NCBI GenBank assembly: GCA_020052235.1
Contig: JAGVPM010000140.1
Coordinates: 1-45,525, forward strand
Source: Candidatus Goldiibacteriota bacterium
GTDB lineage: Bacteria > Oederibacteriota > JAAXVQ01
Length of the DNA stretch: 45,525 nucleotides
Reading direction: 5' to 3'
The notes beneath the pieces are model-generated. The model did no database searches. It saw only the letters and a list, made by a program, of their open reading frames with translations, and was not told the DNA's origin. Shown one piece after another: positions 16,670 through 22,046 of the stretch. The position numbers and the translations under genes are program-made. Every line of letters begins with the position of its first letter. Positions within the stretch are counted from its first letter, which is position 1.

Positions 16670-18175
16670 TTAGCGAATCCTCAATCCGTACTCTTTCTCA
16701 TAATACTTACGGTAATTCCATCCGAATACGATCAAGGTCATGGCGAGTTTGAAGCGCCGGGGATATTTGACCAGGCACCACGTTAAAAACCGCCAATCAT
16801 AAATACGGCCGCGGTTGAAGATTCCCAGTACTAAGATCGCCCTGAAGAACGACACCAACGTCATCCATTGCAGGGGCGGGTTTCCGGCCGGGGTGAGATG
16901 GGAGTAATTTTTGAAAAAAGTTTTCAAACGGGCGTAATAGGCTGCGGGCGAATACAGCTTGGCTATCATGGTTTTAAATTTTTCAAGCAAGTCCCCGGCG
17001 GTCATGGTTTTGGGAACAAAATTCACCACCCCGGCTGTGTAATCGCCCTGAAAAGAATGCGGCCGCAAGCGTCCTTCCTTTTCTAGCCGTTCAAAAAGCC
17101 TGGTCCCGGGCACGGGTTTAAGCAGATTCATCATCGCTGTGGCAATCCCACTGGCTTGGACAAAGGCTTCCTGTTTTTCAAAAATATCGCACGGATCATT
17201 GTCAAATCCCACCACAAACCCACCCTGAACTTGCAGCCCGCTTTTTTGAATTTTTTGGACACTGGCCAGCAGGTCGCGGTTGCGATTCTGATTTTTGGAA
17301 CATTCTTTCAAAGACGCGTCGTGGGTGGATTCTATGCCGACGAAAACTATTGTAAAACCCGCTTGCACCATTAAATCCATGAGTTCCTGGTCATCGGCGA
17401 GGTCCAGCGAAGCCTGGGTAAGGAAGGTAAAGGGATATTTTTTCCCGCGCATCCAGGCAATCATGGCAGGCAGGATTTCCTGCTTCAGGCGTTTACGGTG
17501 CCCGATAAAATTGTCGTCCACGAACATCACTTGTTGCCGCCACCCGGCAGCATGAAATTGCTCTAATTCCGCCAGAATCTGATCTTTATTTTTCGTGCGC
17601 AAGCGCCGCCCGTCCAGAAAAGCGATGCCGCAAAACTCGCATTGGTGCGGACAGCCGCGTGAAAACTGGAGGTTCAGCATAAAATAGTCGTTGCGCGCCA
17701 CAATCTCCCAGAGCGGGATGGGCGATTTTTCCACCTCGGCCCATTGCTCGGTGGTATAAATCCTCCGGTTTTTCCCTGCGGCCAGATCTTCGAGAAACTC
17801 CGGCAGGGTAATTTCTGCTTCCCGCAGAACGAAATGATCAACCTCGGGAAAATCGTCATGGTCCAGCAGGAAAAGCGGACCGCCGGCCACAATTTTTAGC
17901 CCGGCACTGCGGCAGCGGCGTATGACTTCACGGGCTGACGGCTCCTGAACTTGATAGGCGCTGATGAATACAATCTCCGCCCAATGCAGGTCGCTATCCT
18001 TTAGTTTCCGGGCGTTCAAATCCACCAGGCGTTTTTCCCATTCTTTGGGAAGCAAAGCAGCCACGGTAAGCAACCCCAGGGGCGGCATGACGGCCCGTTT
18101 ATAGACGATCCGCAAAGCGTATTTAAAACTCCAAAAGGTCTCGCCATAGTTGGGGTTCAGCAAAAGTGCCCGCAC
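16670..18175 (-). CDS. B12-binding-domain radical SAM protein with DUF4070 tail
   Basis: A 501-residue enzyme. The first 150 residues are a cobalamin-binding-type Rossmann domain (MPPLGLLTVAALLP, IVAGGPLFLL), without the classical DxHxxG. The radical SAM core carries the cluster motif CPHQCEFC (C-x3-C-x2-C) and FVDDNFIGHRKR, and a DUF4070-type C-terminus follows. This order is shared with the hopanoid 2-methylase HpnP and other class B methylases, so methyl transfer to an unactivated carbon is plausible; a specific substrate is not. I choose GTG at 18175, because GGAGG lies five bases upstream and it gives the normal family start (RALLLNPNYGETFWSFKYAL); the frame to 18232 adds 19 residues without a ribosome site. 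Confidence 0.85.
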   Translation of the reverse strand: MRALLLNPNYGETFWSFKYALRIVYKRAVMPPLGLLTVAALLPKEWEKRLVDLNARKLKDSDLHWAEIVFISAYQVQEPSAREVIRRCRSAGLKIVAGGPLFLLDHDDFPEVDHFVLREAEITLPEFLEDLAAGKNRRIYTTEQWAEVEKSPIPLWEIVARNDYFMLNLQFSRGCPHQCEFCGIAFLDGRRLRTKNKDQILAELEQFHAAGWRQQVMFVDDNFIGHRKRLKQEILPAMIAWMRGKKYPFTFLTQASLDLADDQELMDLMVQAGFTIVFVGIESTHDASLKECSKNQNRNRDLLASVQKIQKSGLQVQGGFVVGFDNDPCDIFEKQEAFVQASGIATAMMNLLKPVPGTRLFERLEKEGRLRPHSFQGDYTAGVVNFVPKTMTAGDLLEKFKTMIAKLYSPAAYYARLKTFFKNYSHLTPAGNPPLQWMTLVSFFRAILVLGIFNRGRIYDWRFLTWCLVKYPRRFKLAMTLIVFGWNYRKYYEKEYGLRIR

Positions 18176-18290
18176 AAATTCCTCCGAAAACACTGAATAA
18201 TCGCAGATCGGAATGCCGGACTTCCGAGCCATTATTATATATCCGGTTGGCTATTTGAAAAAGCTATGATTCACTAAACATAAAAAAAGC

Positions 18291-18319
18291 TTGACAAACG
18301 TTTGATGTCAAACTATACT
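18291..18319 (+). promoter_or_regulatory. marR-type promoter with operator copy 1 in the spacer
   Basis: TTGACA (18291-18296) and TATACT (18314-18319) are separated by 17 bases, a near-consensus promoter. The spacer holds the dyad GTTTGA-TG-TCAAAC (18300-18313). Binding there would exclude RNA polymerase, giving autorepression. The predicted start of transcription falls at or next to the ATG at 18327. Confidence 0.75.
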
Positions 18320-18326
18320 TGCAAAC

Positions 18327-18749
18327 ATGAAACCTGACAACCTGGCTTATTTAATATCCGTCGCCCGCGAGAAAATGTCCCGATTCATTGTTTCGGAACT
18401 GCAGCGGCATAAGATCGGGAAACTGGTGCCTTCGCATGGGGATATTTTAATGGCATTATACCAACACGGCAGCTTGCCCATGAAAGATCTGGTGCGCATG
18501 ATCCGGAAAGACAAGTCAACCGTGACTCCGCTGGTTGAGAAATTAATTAACCTGGGATATGTTGATAAAAACCAGGACGAACAGGATCTCCGCATAAAAA
18601 AAATCGCCCTTACTTTCAAGGGCAGGTCTTTACGCCCCATCTTTGACGAGATATCCGAAAAGCTTTACCAGCGGATTTATAAAAATATATCCGTGGAAGA
18701 AGGAAAAACCCTTCGATTACTTTTGGAAAAAATAATTGCCCACTGGTGA
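18327..18749 (+). CDS. MarR-family transcriptional regulator
   Basis: A 140-residue winged-helix protein: helix-turn-helix with LPMKDLVRMIRKDKSTVTPLVEKLINLGYV, then the wing with DLRIKKIALTFKGRS, a close fit to MarR. It likely binds as a dimer to the GTTTGA-N2-TCAAAC dyads at its own promoter and twice before the next gene. There is no ribosome-binding site before the ATG, and the promoter predicts a transcript starting within two bases of it, so the message is probably leaderless. An internal ATG (residue 17) would cut helix 1. The downstream MBL-fold gene is the likely target. Confidence 0.9.
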   Translation: MKPDNLAYLISVAREKMSRFIVSELQRHKIGKLVPSHGDILMALYQHGSLPMKDLVRMIRKDKSTVTPLVEKLINLGYVDKNQDEQDLRIKKIALTFKGRSLRPIFDEISEKLYQRIYKNISVEEGKTLRLLLEKIIAHW

Positions 18750-18766
18750 TTATTTTTAATAAAAAG

Positions 18767-18780
18767 ATTTGATATCAAAC
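18767..18780. promoter_or_regulatory. MarR operator copy 2
   Basis: The perfect dyad TTTGATATCAAA (18768-18779) stands between marR and the MBL gene and matches the marR promoter dyad in both half-sites (TTTGA/TCAAA). Confidence 0.65.
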
Positions 18781-18829
18781 TAACTGCGTGTGTTTTTTTA
18801 ATCAAAGGAGGTGAACTCGTTCTACAAAG

Positions 18830-18843
18830 GTTTGATGTCAAAC
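18830..18843. promoter_or_regulatory. MarR operator copy 3
   Basis: GTTTGATGTCAAAC is identical over 14 bases to copy 1 at 18300-18313. It ends 15 bases before the ATG of the MBL-fold gene, just before its ribosome site, where a bound repressor would act as a roadblock. A strong AAAGGAGGTGA at 18804-18814 lies upstream with no well-spaced start codon of its own. Confidence 0.65.
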
Positions 18844-18858
18844 AAAAAGGAGAAGAAA

Positions 18859-19758
18859 ATGCATTTTAAAAAATTGGCAGTTGTTACAGCAGTTTTGCTG
18901 GCATCCAGAAGTCTAAACCACGCATGCCACGCCATAACCCAGGGAGGCAAGACCATGAAAGGAACTATTGTCATTACGAATAAGGAAAACGTAAAAATTC
19001 ACTCCTACATCTCGCCTGAAGACAGCACATTGGTCAGTACCCAGATCATTGAAACCAAACATGAGCTGGTGGTCGTCGATGCTCAATTTTTACGGCCGTA
19101 TGCCCGGGAAGTAAAGGCCTACATTGCCGGTTTGAACAAACCTATAAACCGCATCATCATCAGCCATTCCCATCCGGATCATTGGTTTGGTTTGGAGTTT
19201 TTTCAAGATGTGCCGGTTTACAGTCTGCCGGAAACCAAAGAAGAAATTGAGAAACTAGGCGATGTGATTATTCAAAGCAAGAAACCGGTTTTAGGCGATT
19301 TGGTCACGGATAAAAAATATGTGCCGACCAAGATTATCGCCGCGCCTGGGAAAGAAGCGATTGACGGCGTAATTTTTGAATTCGAAAGGATCAAGTCCGC
19401 CGAAGCCGTGATCCAGTTGCTGATCAAACTTCCGCAGGCGCAAGTTTTGGTGGCGCAGGACCTGGCATTCAACCGGGTGCATTTATTCATCGGTCAAAAG
19501 GAGTTTAAATCCTGGATGCAGATTGCCCAATCCATGGAGGCATTGAAAGATTATTCGATCATTCTGGCCGGGCATGGCGAACCCGCGGATTCCAAAATAT
19601 TTCACGAGAATATTCAGTATCTTAACGATGTAATGGAAATTTTCTTGAAAGTGAAAACCGGCGCGGAATTAAAACACGCCTTGGTAAAAAAATACCCCGC
19701 CTACCGGGGCGCGGTACTTTTGGACATCTCGAATTCATTTCTCTATCCCCAACCCTAA
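18859..19758 (+). CDS. Exported metallo-beta-lactamase-fold protein
   Basis: A 299-residue protein with a probable signal peptide (MHFKKLAVVTAVLLAS..., cleavage near ACHA). The MBL fold follows, with the metal motif SHSHPDHWFG (HxHxDH) near residue 110, a later acidic metal residue (LVAQDLAFNRVH) and a terminal AGHGEP motif. The middle histidine usual in GHTxG is not seen, and AEAVIQLLIKLP occupies that place, so the metal site may be unusual. The ATG at 18859 has AAGGAG six bases upstream. Longer frames would begin inside the operator. It probably hydrolyses a small substrate in the periplasm and is induced through the MarR protein. Confidence 0.82.
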   Translation: MHFKKLAVVTAVLLASRSLNHACHAITQGGKTMKGTIVITNKENVKIHSYISPEDSTLVSTQIIETKHELVVVDAQFLRPYAREVKAYIAGLNKPINRIIISHSHPDHWFGLEFFQDVPVYSLPETKEEIEKLGDVIIQSKKPVLGDLVTDKKYVPTKIIAAPGKEAIDGVIFEFERIKSAEAVIQLLIKLPQAQVLVAQDLAFNRVHLFIGQKEFKSWMQIAQSMEALKDYSIILAGHGEPADSKIFHENIQYLNDVMEIFLKVKTGAELKHALVKKYPAYRGAVLLDISNSFLYPQP

Positions 19759-19844: not shown

Positions 19845-21431
19845 TTAAAACTCTCTCAATTCCGCCGCATCCAAGGGGATAATCTTCTTTGCGGCCACCG
19901 GAGATGGCTGCAATTTATTTTTTTCGGGTTGCGAAGTCGAGAAACGCGGAGCCGCGTTTGCTCCAAAATGCGCGCTCCTCTCTCTGGAATAGTCATGAGA
20001 TTCAGACGTTTCCCGGACATAGCCGACCATTCCCTGAAGATGATTAACCAACATTTTCAATTCCTGGGCTTGGGAATCCAGTTCCTCCGAAGCCGAAGCC
20101 GATTCTTCCGCGCTGGCGGCAATCGATTGCGTCACTTTGTCCATTTGTGTCATCGCGTCGTTCACTTGCTCGATCCCTTGGGTCTGCTCGGTGCTGCCGG
20201 CCACGACAGCAGCAGCCAGCCGGTCCACTTTCAATGCCACTGTGCTGATTTCCTGCAGAGTCTGCGACACTTCAACACTTATGGTTACACCCAATTCCGT
20301 GCTTTGAACGGAATTGGCGATCATGGTGCCGGTATTTTTAGCAGCGGCCGCGCTTTTTTGGGCCAAATTGCGCACCTCTTCCGCCACCACGGCAAATCCC
20401 TTGCCGGCTTCTCCGGCCCGGGCTGCCTCAACGGCGGCATTAAGCGCCAACAAGTTGGTTTGAAAAGCAATTTCATCAATCGTCTTAATGATCTTGGAGG
20501 TTTCGTCCGATGATTTCTTGATGCTGCCAATCGCCGCAGTCATCTTGGCCATGGCAGCGCTGCCTTGATTGGAAACCTCTTTGGTCTTCTCCGCCAAGGC
20601 TTTGGTTTCAGAGGCATTCGCCGCATTCTTTTTGGTCACTTCCACCATTTGTTTGATGCTTTGGCTGATCTTATCAACCACCGTGGCTTGCTCACTGGCG
20701 CCTTGAGCCAGGGATTGGCCGGAAGAGGAAACTTGGCCCGCGGCTGAAGAGGTTTGAGCGGCCCCGCTGCCCAAGCCTTCAATGATTTTTTTCAGTGGTC
20801 CGGTGATGGACCGCGAAATCATCAGCGCCAACACCACGCCAACAATGCTGATGATAACCGACATGAGCAAAATCCACCAACGCACTGAGCCCATGATATG
20901 CGTATATTGATTCCGTTTGTCTTTGGAGACCGTAATAACTTGGGCGAGTGTCTCCATGACTATTTTGAGTTCAGGTTCTGTTTTTTCGCGGTAAACTTTT
21001 ATAATGTCTTGAAAACCCGCGGATTCATGCTTGAGCTGCGCAATCACCAAAGCGGATTCATGCAAACGCGTATGCGGCCCCTCAATTTCCATAAACAGAC
21101 TCTGCAGTTCCGGTATTTTTTTAACCACTTCATTTTTTCCTTCGCCATAAAACCATTTGCCGAATCCGCACTGATGCGGATCGGTTTGAATTTTTAATTC
21201 CCGGTTTTTATTTTCATCAATTATAAAGGCATTCAGCTGATTCACCCACGCCAGGTGGTCAATTTCACGCTGCAACATTTCCATGACCACCGCCGTCATG
21301 GCCGCCCGGTTGCCGGCTTGGTTCAAAATCTGATTCATCCCCAAAAACGACGTAATGGTAACCAAGGCTAAAAAGAAGATATACAACAATGATTGCAGAC
21401 CGATTTTTCGGCTAATGGTCAGATTACTCAT
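19845..21431 (-). CDS. Methyl-accepting chemotaxis protein with a zinc-binding CZB sensor
   Basis: A 528-residue chemoreceptor. Transmembrane helix 1 spans about 9-31. A periplasmic CZB-like sensor follows, with the four zinc ligands visible: His59 (DHLAW), Cys88 (HQCGFGKWF), His120 and His124 (GPHTRLH). The second helix (about 190-212) leads into a HAMP-like region and the coiled-coil signalling domain with the hairpin tip [23 protein letters not shown] usually sits in the cytoplasm; here it lies between the two membrane helices. The C-terminus ends [14 protein letters not shown], close to the end of the broken receptor at 28245. GGAGG lies six bases before the ATG, and a sigma-28-like promoter stands upstream. 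Bacteriohemerythrin is the next gene upstream. Confidence 0.93.
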
Positions 21432-21470
21432 GATTCGCCTCCACTGATGAATTCTTTAGCACCATTAATA

Positions 21471-21497
21471 AAATCGGCTGTCTTAAAAAAAACTTGA
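21471..21497 (-). promoter_or_regulatory. Sigma-28 (FliA)-like promoter of the chemoreceptor gene
   Basis: On the minus strand TCAAGTTT (21497-21490), 11 bases, GCCGATTT (21478-21471) compares with the flagellar sigma consensus TAAAGTTT-N11-GCCGATAA (7 of 8 and 6 of 8 positions). It lies about 40 bases upstream of the start codon. Confidence 0.65.
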
Positions 21498-21574
21498 GCC
21501 ATTTATTGTTTTTTCAACACATTGGTTTGATTTAGATTTTTCCGGTGCAGGTATTCGGGCGGATTTCCGCGGGC

Positions 21575-21982
21575 TTATTTCAAACCATGTTCTTGAAAAC
21601 AAACGGAGTATCTCTGGTCCACGACCAAGATATGCTCCGTCAGCCAGCCTTTGAGAAAATTCATAACCTGGAGCGAAAGCGCAAGTTTATTGGCTTCAAA
21701 ATCCTGTTTAAATTTCTCTACGCGCCGTATGAATTCCGCATGTTCCGCAACATGCGCTGAATACCCGGGATAATTGAATTGGCGCATATACGTTTCTTCC
21801 GTGGAAAAATGGCTGCGGGTATATTCTTCCAGTTCATTTAAAATCTCACCCAAAATTTCTTTCCCTTTGGATTGTTTCATGGCCTCATGCAGAGTATTGA
21901 TTAAACCAAATAATTTGCAATGCTGGTCATCAATGCTTTTTACGTTCACGCTGTATTTTTCGCTGAATTCGAAGATCGGCAT
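21575..21982 (-). CDS. Bacteriohemerythrin
   Basis: A 135-residue four-helix protein with all seven di-iron ligands of hemerythrin: His21 (DDQHCKLF), His58 and Glu62 (HFSTEE), His77 and His81 (HVAEH), His117 and Asp122 (EHILVVD). It binds O2 reversibly and can store or deliver oxygen, or sense it. The ATG at 21982 follows GGGAGG with nine bases; the GTG six bases earlier sits too close to that site. It lies upstream of, and on the same strand as, the CZB chemoreceptor (143 bases apart), a pairing that suggests oxygen or redox taxis. Confidence 0.93.
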   Translation of the reverse strand: MPIFEFSEKYSVNVKSIDDQHCKLFGLINTLHEAMKQSKGKEILGEILNELEEYTRSHFSTEETYMRQFNYPGYSAHVAEHAEFIRRVEKFKQDFEANKLALSLQVMNFLKGWLTEHILVVDQRYSVCFQEHGLK

Positions 21983-22046
21983 GCGCACAAACCTCCCAGC
22001 CGGCGGCGGGCGCCGGTTATTTTTTTACTCCAAACCCCCGACGCAC

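Follow-up and report, generated by a model that had tools for sequence, protein, structure and literature searches.

How does one short regulator control the gene that follows it when copies of its operator lie both within its own promoter and behind its coding sequence? The question is raised by a locus in the window analyzed here, the whole 45,525-nt stretch of contig JAGVPM010000140.1 (assembly GCA_020052235.1) from a Candidatus Goldiibacteriota bacterium. In this window a marR gene is followed by a gene for a metallo-β-lactamase (MBL)-fold protein (Table 1). An earlier note on the sequence had read the locus as a MarR regulon in miniature, with one operator present three times, and had predicted autorepression together with a downstream roadblock, both relieved by a single ligand. 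The earlier finding is real and was largely well read, and its interpretation is partly supported.

Table 1. Features of the marR–MBL locus, in window coordinates
Feature	Position	Strand	Basis or remark
marR promoter P1	18291..18319	+	TTGACA 18291-18296, 17-nt spacer, TATACT 18314-18319
Operator O1, GTTTGATGTCAAAC	18300..18313	.	in promoter spacer, flush with -10
marR, 140 aa MarR-family repressor	18327..18749	+	Pfam PF01047, E 4.8e-11
Hairpin over marR end, terminator-like	18728..18757	+	13 bp, CACT loop; 3′ arm ends in T-tract
T-tract (5 T)	18753..18757	+	ends exactly 9 nt ahead of O2
Operator O2, ATTTGATATCAAAC	18767..18780	.	17 nt past marR stop codon; proposed roadblock
Operator O3, exact O1 copy	18830..18843	.	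15 nt ahead of MBL start
AAGGAG ribosome-binding site of MBL gene	18847..18852	+	sequence, start-site listing
MBL-fold hydrolase, 299 aa, signal-peptide-like N-terminus	18859..19758	+	PF00753, E 7.4e-8

A sequence search of the window recovers the dyad GTTTGATGTCAAAC within the spacer of the marR promoter and its second exact copy ahead of the MBL ribosome site, both as claimed. The third dyad is ATTTGATATCAAAC; it occupies 18767–18780, where 18768–18779 had been given before, and the part of its palindrome that matches the other sites is 12–13 bp long. The half-site of the window operators is GTTTGA. O3 ends 3 nt before the AAGGAG sequence, and the centers of O2 and O3 are 63 bp, or 6.0 helical turns, apart. 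With up to three mismatches allowed, the 14-mer has 12 matches in the window (six of them O1, O2 and O3 on both strands) against a shuffle mean of 5.0 and a maximum of 10, and the recurrence of the dyad is therefore beyond chance. In the whole 3.17-Mb genome, exact GTTTGANNTCAAAC is found at O1 and O3 only. A single mismatch extends the list to 19 places, of which three are O1–O3, and the reversed control pattern gives eight. Fifteen of the 16 one-mismatch sites outside the window were inspected together; open frames of 150 aa or more enclose 13 of these but not the remaining two, and the sixteenth, on contig C116, is intergenic. Because there are only two exact sites and the near-sites fall mostly within long frames, the dyad is not a common motif in its own genome. 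The description of a regulon in miniature is supported, with no further exact site in the genome.

Some smaller observations belong beside these sites. The C116 site (L001, 463–476) reads GTTTGATGTCAAAA, follows a GGAGG and contains the ATG of a frame about 28 codons long. Between O2 and O3 there is a strong Shine–Dalgarno sequence, AAAGGAGGTGA (18804–18814), without a well-placed start codon; an ATG in frame with it occurs at 18835, within O3. Two dyads behind marR are also present in the relatives L172 and L144, spaced 33 and 37 bp. On the other side of the promoter, a B12-binding radical SAM/DUF4070 gene (16670–18232, minus strand) points away from marR, and a sequence resembling a promoter on that strand (18312–18340; TTGTCA, 17 nt, TATAGT) overlaps O1, so this divergent gene could share the operator. 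Downstream of the MBL gene, the minus-strand region 19845–21988 holds what we take, by sequence likeness, to be a methyl-accepting chemotaxis protein gene and a hemerythrin-like gene.

Is the promoter operator a conserved feature? We collected 37 marR loci, namely the window locus and relatives at 37–51% identity. They comprise Clostridium-type matches (E 1e-20 or better in 6 of 147 and 36 of 389 genomes searched), plasmid matches (L142–L145), the window and G007, a genome from another family of the same order. An automatic rule asked whether the −35/−10 spacer holds a dyad, one mismatch being tolerated, and whether a similar one lies no more than 130 nt behind marR. The spacer dyad is present in 22 of the 37 loci (dinucleotide-shuffle mean 0.4, maximum 4) and is repeated behind marR in 17 of those 22 (mean 0.5, maximum 3), with the caveat that the relatives are mostly kin of one another, so that the shuffle statistics overstate independence. 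Nine of the 15 loci without a spacer dyad form one sister clade (100/100 support; L142, L150, L158, L162, L164, L165, L167, L170 and L171), in which no dyad was found and all nine loci carry a ribosome-site motif; strong hairpins of the ordinary kind follow marR in L142, L158 and L170 at least.

A spacer arrangement like that of P1 and O1 is present in G007 as well as in the relatives from Clostridia and Bacilli. The G007 regulator is 39–40% identical to that of the window and its promoter reads TTGACT-TTG-GTTTGACGTCAAAC-TATAAT, with the ATG 6 nt on; G007 has this counterpart of O1 but neither O2 nor the MBL gene. (An exact GTTTGATGTCAAAC on contig C54 of G007 lies inside a gene and was taken as chance.) Across the aligned loci, the TTGACA and TATAAT hexamers around O1 are conserved. 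Conservation of the predicted site among these loci and in G007 thus lends good support to the proposal that MarR would repress its own gene from an operator between the −35 and −10 hexamers.

The start of marR is also distinctive. Its ATG lies 7 nt past the −10 hexamer in the window, where the transcript is probably leaderless, and in a set of 27 loci picked by hand the ATG is 6–7 nt past the −10 in 25; in 23 of these, a ribosome-site motif is missing from the last 20 nt. Not every locus starts without a leader: a subclade fetched later, with GTTCGGTACCGAAC-type operators, has a leader and a ribosome site. The loci of this subclade (L205, L206, L207, L208 and L210) have GC-richer hairpins ahead of the T-tract.

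The regulator itself belongs to the MarR family (PF01047, 42.8 bits against a cut-off of 24.6), and none of the NCBIfam equivalogs reaches its cut-off with the window protein, the best being BilQ (NF045593, 50.4 against 125 bits). A peroxide sensor of the OhrR or EstR type was ruled out because the reactive cysteine is absent, the window MarR having no cysteine at all. Its recognition helix starts D62-K63-S64, and across the loci the helix residues go with the operator variant: D-K with GTTTGA, D-R with CTTTGA, E-R with CTTCGA and T-Q-P with ATAGA. A lysine accompanies G or A as first base in 15 of 15 cases (the other half-site of L174 has C), and an arginine accompanies C on at least one half in eight of eight. 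On the tree, there is one change for K/R and one for the first operator base, and the correlation therefore has no statistical weight; the co-variation is consistent with recognition of the operator by this helix and is not independent proof of it. Within a locus, the operator variant is identical before and behind marR, as in L134 (GTTCGATATCGAAG/CTTCGATATCGAAG) and L145 (TATAGATATCTATA/CATAGATATCTATG), with TTCGA at both places in L134 and ATAGA at both in L143 and L145.

Behind marR, most relatives have a single operator. We aligned 21 of these downstream operators on their first base: 20 hand-picked from the 37 loci, including L143, L144 and L156, which the automatic rule had missed, and excluding L152, where the downstream dyad is degraded, together with a Nitrospirota locus. 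A run of 5–8 T ends upstream of the operator, at a distance of 9 nt in 17 loci and 8 nt in two (19 of 21; shuffle mean 1.8, maximum 7), and is absent in L144 and the Nitrospirota MBL locus. The T-tract tracks the operator and not the stop codon, since the operator starts anywhere from about 15 to 49 nt past the stop. Nine loci were fetched later and had no part in forming the spacing rule; five of them have a downstream dyad, of a different operator sequence, and all five have the tract at 8–9 nt. A hairpin before or including the tract, with z below −1.5, is present in 12 of 24 T-tract loci, the window among them, and a clear hairpin is absent in the other 12. The window hairpin has a folding energy of −9.8 to −10.5 kcal/mol and a z of −3.5 against dinucleotide shuffles (42-nt stretch), which together with a T-tract 10–14 nt upstream of O2 gives the window the features of a roadblock-assisted terminator.

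At the O2 counterparts of the 21 aligned loci, there is no −35 and no conserved −10, only the ‘TA’ of the longer palindrome being kept, and no plus-strand promoter-like site was found between marR and the MBL gene in the window. This geometry of tract, operator and hairpin fits a weak terminator on which a repressor acts as roadblock. The case for the downstream roadblock of the earlier note is thereby strengthened: the fixed tract spacing and the lack of a conserved promoter speak for it at the first downstream operator.

The closest relative of the MBL protein (49%) is encoded on a Nitrospirota contig (L021/L136), where the end of marR is followed by GTTTGATATCAAAC and then by the MBL gene; the GTTTGATATCAAAC-type site is the sole such site in that genome. 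Since this contig has the same succession, the order marR–operator–MBL occurs in two phyla. Its locus lacks the tract, and the T-tract of the marR–MBL pair is therefore seen in the window only.

The reading that we favor, and consider rather probable, is a self-contained, ligand-relieved repression cassette with a roadblock and read-through into the MBL gene. A MarR dimer at O1, between the −35 and −10 hexamers, would silence its own leaderless promoter, and downstream of marR it would also occupy O2 and, in this locus, O3. Polymerase escaping P1 would be halted by MarR at O2, with the RNA 3′ end then on the T-tract; this placement draws on the usual distance at which bacterial RNA polymerase stalls ahead of an obstacle. 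The hairpin over the end of marR would aid release of the halted polymerase, and O3 may provide an extra block ahead of the ribosome site. Ligand would clear all sites and the transcript would continue into the MBL hydrolase gene, the product of which has as its probable substrate the inducer or a related compound. From the sites, their conserved position and sequence, the fixed T-tract spacing and the lack of a second recognizable plus-strand promoter, we infer MarR binding, a roadblock or termination, a ligand and the substrate of the enzyme. Counting against this model, the window tract has only 5 T, and the geometry of the T-tract leaves O3 unaccounted for. As a wider and more tentative proposal, an operator 8–9 nt behind a T-tract at the end of a repressor gene may be a repressor-gated terminator that is widespread in bacteria, in which, with or without a hairpin, the bound repressor would keep polymerase on the tract and trigger release, and ligand would switch the terminator off.

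The same elements can be read in other ways. A T-tract upstream of a promoter is a possible UP element, and the tract could serve as one if O2 (and O3) governed a second promoter, for the MBL gene, with occlusion at both promoters in the style of MepR. There is precedent for this in the MepR sites at mepR and mepA, as given in the excerpt consulted (PMC3617543), and in a few loci a −10-like hexamer comes straight after O2 (TATAAT in L163 and L134); we nevertheless judge a second promoter unlikely, because the 21 aligned O2 loci show no −35 and no conserved −10 and O2 in the window shows no promoter-like plus-strand site. It is also conceivable that binding alone counts, in a cooperative or looped MarR complex, and that tract and hairpin are the ordinary terminator of marR. 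The helical phasing of O2 and O3 in the window would suit such a complex, and the hairpin with its tract does look like an intrinsic terminator, but a terminator unconnected with the operator would not hold a distance of 8–9 nt to it while the distance to the stop codon varies, and with a single downstream site in most relatives a looped complex appears improbable.

Lower still do we rate the idea that O2 and O3 work at the RNA level, through a 14-bp stem in the MBL leader that controls translation. The 18750–18858 RNA does fold in this way (−17.8 kcal/mol), but so would any two copies of a palindrome, the ribosome site at 18847–18852 stays free and most relatives have only the one downstream copy, which makes a role of this kind very improbable. 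That the repeats arose by chance and have no regulatory role is hardly credible: near-matches elsewhere in the genome do occur roughly at background level, but position and sequence are conserved in the relatives.

The favored reading, a cassette with roadblock and read-through, can be set beside the genes that follow marR. In 21 loci, this gene encodes an α/β hydrolase of varying kind in 12, with a gap of 420 nt in one case; the other nine comprise three MFS pumps, three PNPOx-like proteins and, one each, a flavodoxin-like reductase, an ABC-transporter gene and a large membrane protein that is probably a transporter. (Nine of the 21 partner genes were checked by Pfam and the others were named by sequence likeness or plasmid annotation.) With its MBL protein, the window would add one more hydrolase to the kinds found at this position. 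The partners in the relatives are of the detoxification type; hydrolases and efflux pumps suggest that the ligand is a foreign or toxic small molecule, and they fit the earlier proposal that one ligand would relieve all sites and that the MBL enzyme may act on it.

The MBL product belongs to the metallo-β-lactamase fold superfamily (PF00753, 33.0 bits against 22.7), with HSHPDH as its HxHxDH motif. Its structure model has a mean pLDDT of 90.8 and matches 8d2z_A best (Z 27.0, rmsd 2.9 Å, 258 residues) in match lists that show MBL and alkylsulfatase structures and that other possible families may lie outside of. Seven residues are invariant in 32 aligned relatives: H103, H105, D107, H108, E182, D201 and H239. 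The earlier note had observed that the usual GHTxG histidine is missing. This is real, and the position is that of the invariant glutamate E182; counted along the sequences, E182 and the His196 of subclass B1 enzymes each lie 10 residues before the P of an LP motif. The same His-to-Glu change at His196 is described for the alkylsulfatases SdsA1 and SdsAP in the portion of the source used here (PMC5426288). Because E182 is invariant and this change has been described, the missing histidine is a family trait, and of the unusual chemistry proposed from it the histidine loss stands, while the chemistry looks less unusual than suggested, Glu being known from alkylsulfatases. Likeness to the type III alkylsulfatases (SdsA1/SdsAP/Pisa1) lies in this replacement; their chains are about 630–670 residues long and have Glu for Cys221, whereas the window protein has 299 aa and D201 in 32 of 32 relatives. 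Two more specific assignments were rejected, subclass B1 β-lactamase (33.6 bits against 200, with Glu182 at the His196 position by spacing) and quinoprotein relay zinc metallohydrolase 1 (TIGR04558, 91.5 bits against 300).

Export of the MBL enzyme is plausible for the window copy only; the nearest relative (L021) has no signal-peptide-like N-terminus. MBL relatives are rare: they were found in one of 45 genomes of the phylum, which is the window's own genome, and in one of 394 around the Nitrospirota genome, which is that genome itself. No MBL relative was found in viral contigs, where a pattern of T-tract plus operator gave 13 stretches, none with a marR match, and a search with the O1 promoter pattern gave no match. 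MarR genes near MBL genes in L026 (Fusobacteriaceae) and L023 (a Clostridium MAG) were set aside as being of another type, without this dyad.

The novelty lies in an architecture that is conserved and in the spacing between operator and T-tract; MarR autorepressors and bacterial roadblocking are already known. Such autorepressors are common, and in these loci position, operator sequence and helix residues go together across phyla. The cassette is compact: promoter and first operator take up about 36 bp, and a leaderless gene and one more operator complete it. The constant spacing supplies a precise rule by which a repressor-gated terminator can be tested for, and such a terminator would explain how a single short regulator governs partner genes of many unrelated kinds. 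Should the T-tract serve for release, roadblock repression would be linked to termination in bacteria. A literature survey by title and start of abstract, with subscription journals mostly outside its range, yielded nothing that we recognized as dealing with these regulators as a group or with a bacterial T-tract terminator gated by a repressor.

Among known MarR systems, MepR of Staphylococcus aureus has sites in the promoters of both regulator and partner gene, the partner being a MATE pump (PMC3617543, in the excerpt consulted). It resembles the window locus as an autorepressor followed by a partner gene tied to toxic compounds, with an operator at each, and differs in its motif (GTTAG rather than GTTTGA), in having a pump where the window has an MBL hydrolase, and in partner sites that, in that excerpt, overlap a real promoter, whereas O2 of the window type shows no conserved promoter. 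We do not claim orthology, since other MarR chains score above MepR. EstR of Agrobacterium, as far as the parts of the report at hand describe it, senses organic hydroperoxide and represses both its own gene and the adjacent hydrolase (esterase) gene estC through 14-bp palindromes, GTTATCGCGATAAC (PMC5201249); its genes are divergent and share one intergenic region, its operators differ from those of the window, and the window MarR has no cysteine. MhqR of S. aureus likewise heads an operon with detoxification genes (mhqRED), senses quinones by a non-thiol route and binds a 9-9 bp operator over the operon start site; the sections drawn on mention no operator behind the regulator (PMC6798810).

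The closest parallels to the downstream half of the cassette concern elongation and termination. Repressors such as CcpA, CodY, PurR, ArsR and LexA bind inside transcription units and block elongation, and the text consulted on these roadblocks describes no fixed operator/T-tract spacing of the kind present in the window loci (PMC10310618). At RNA polymerase I terminators, according to the portion of the source used, polymerase is stopped by bound Reb1, Nsi1 or TTF1 while still about 15 bp upstream of the protein's site, within a T-rich tract, and release is triggered by an RNA hairpin that precedes the tract (PMC12366685). The tract here lies at a matching place, about 10–16 bp upstream of O2. 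The Pol I terminators described there are eukaryotic and constitutive and have a longer hairpin distance, whereas in the window the block would be a repressor that ligand can remove and termination is predicted from the sequence. If this reading is true, the cassette would bring together an autorepressor with a leaderless start, a partner gene that can be exchanged freely and a ligand-controlled bacterial counterpart of Reb1/TTF1 termination.
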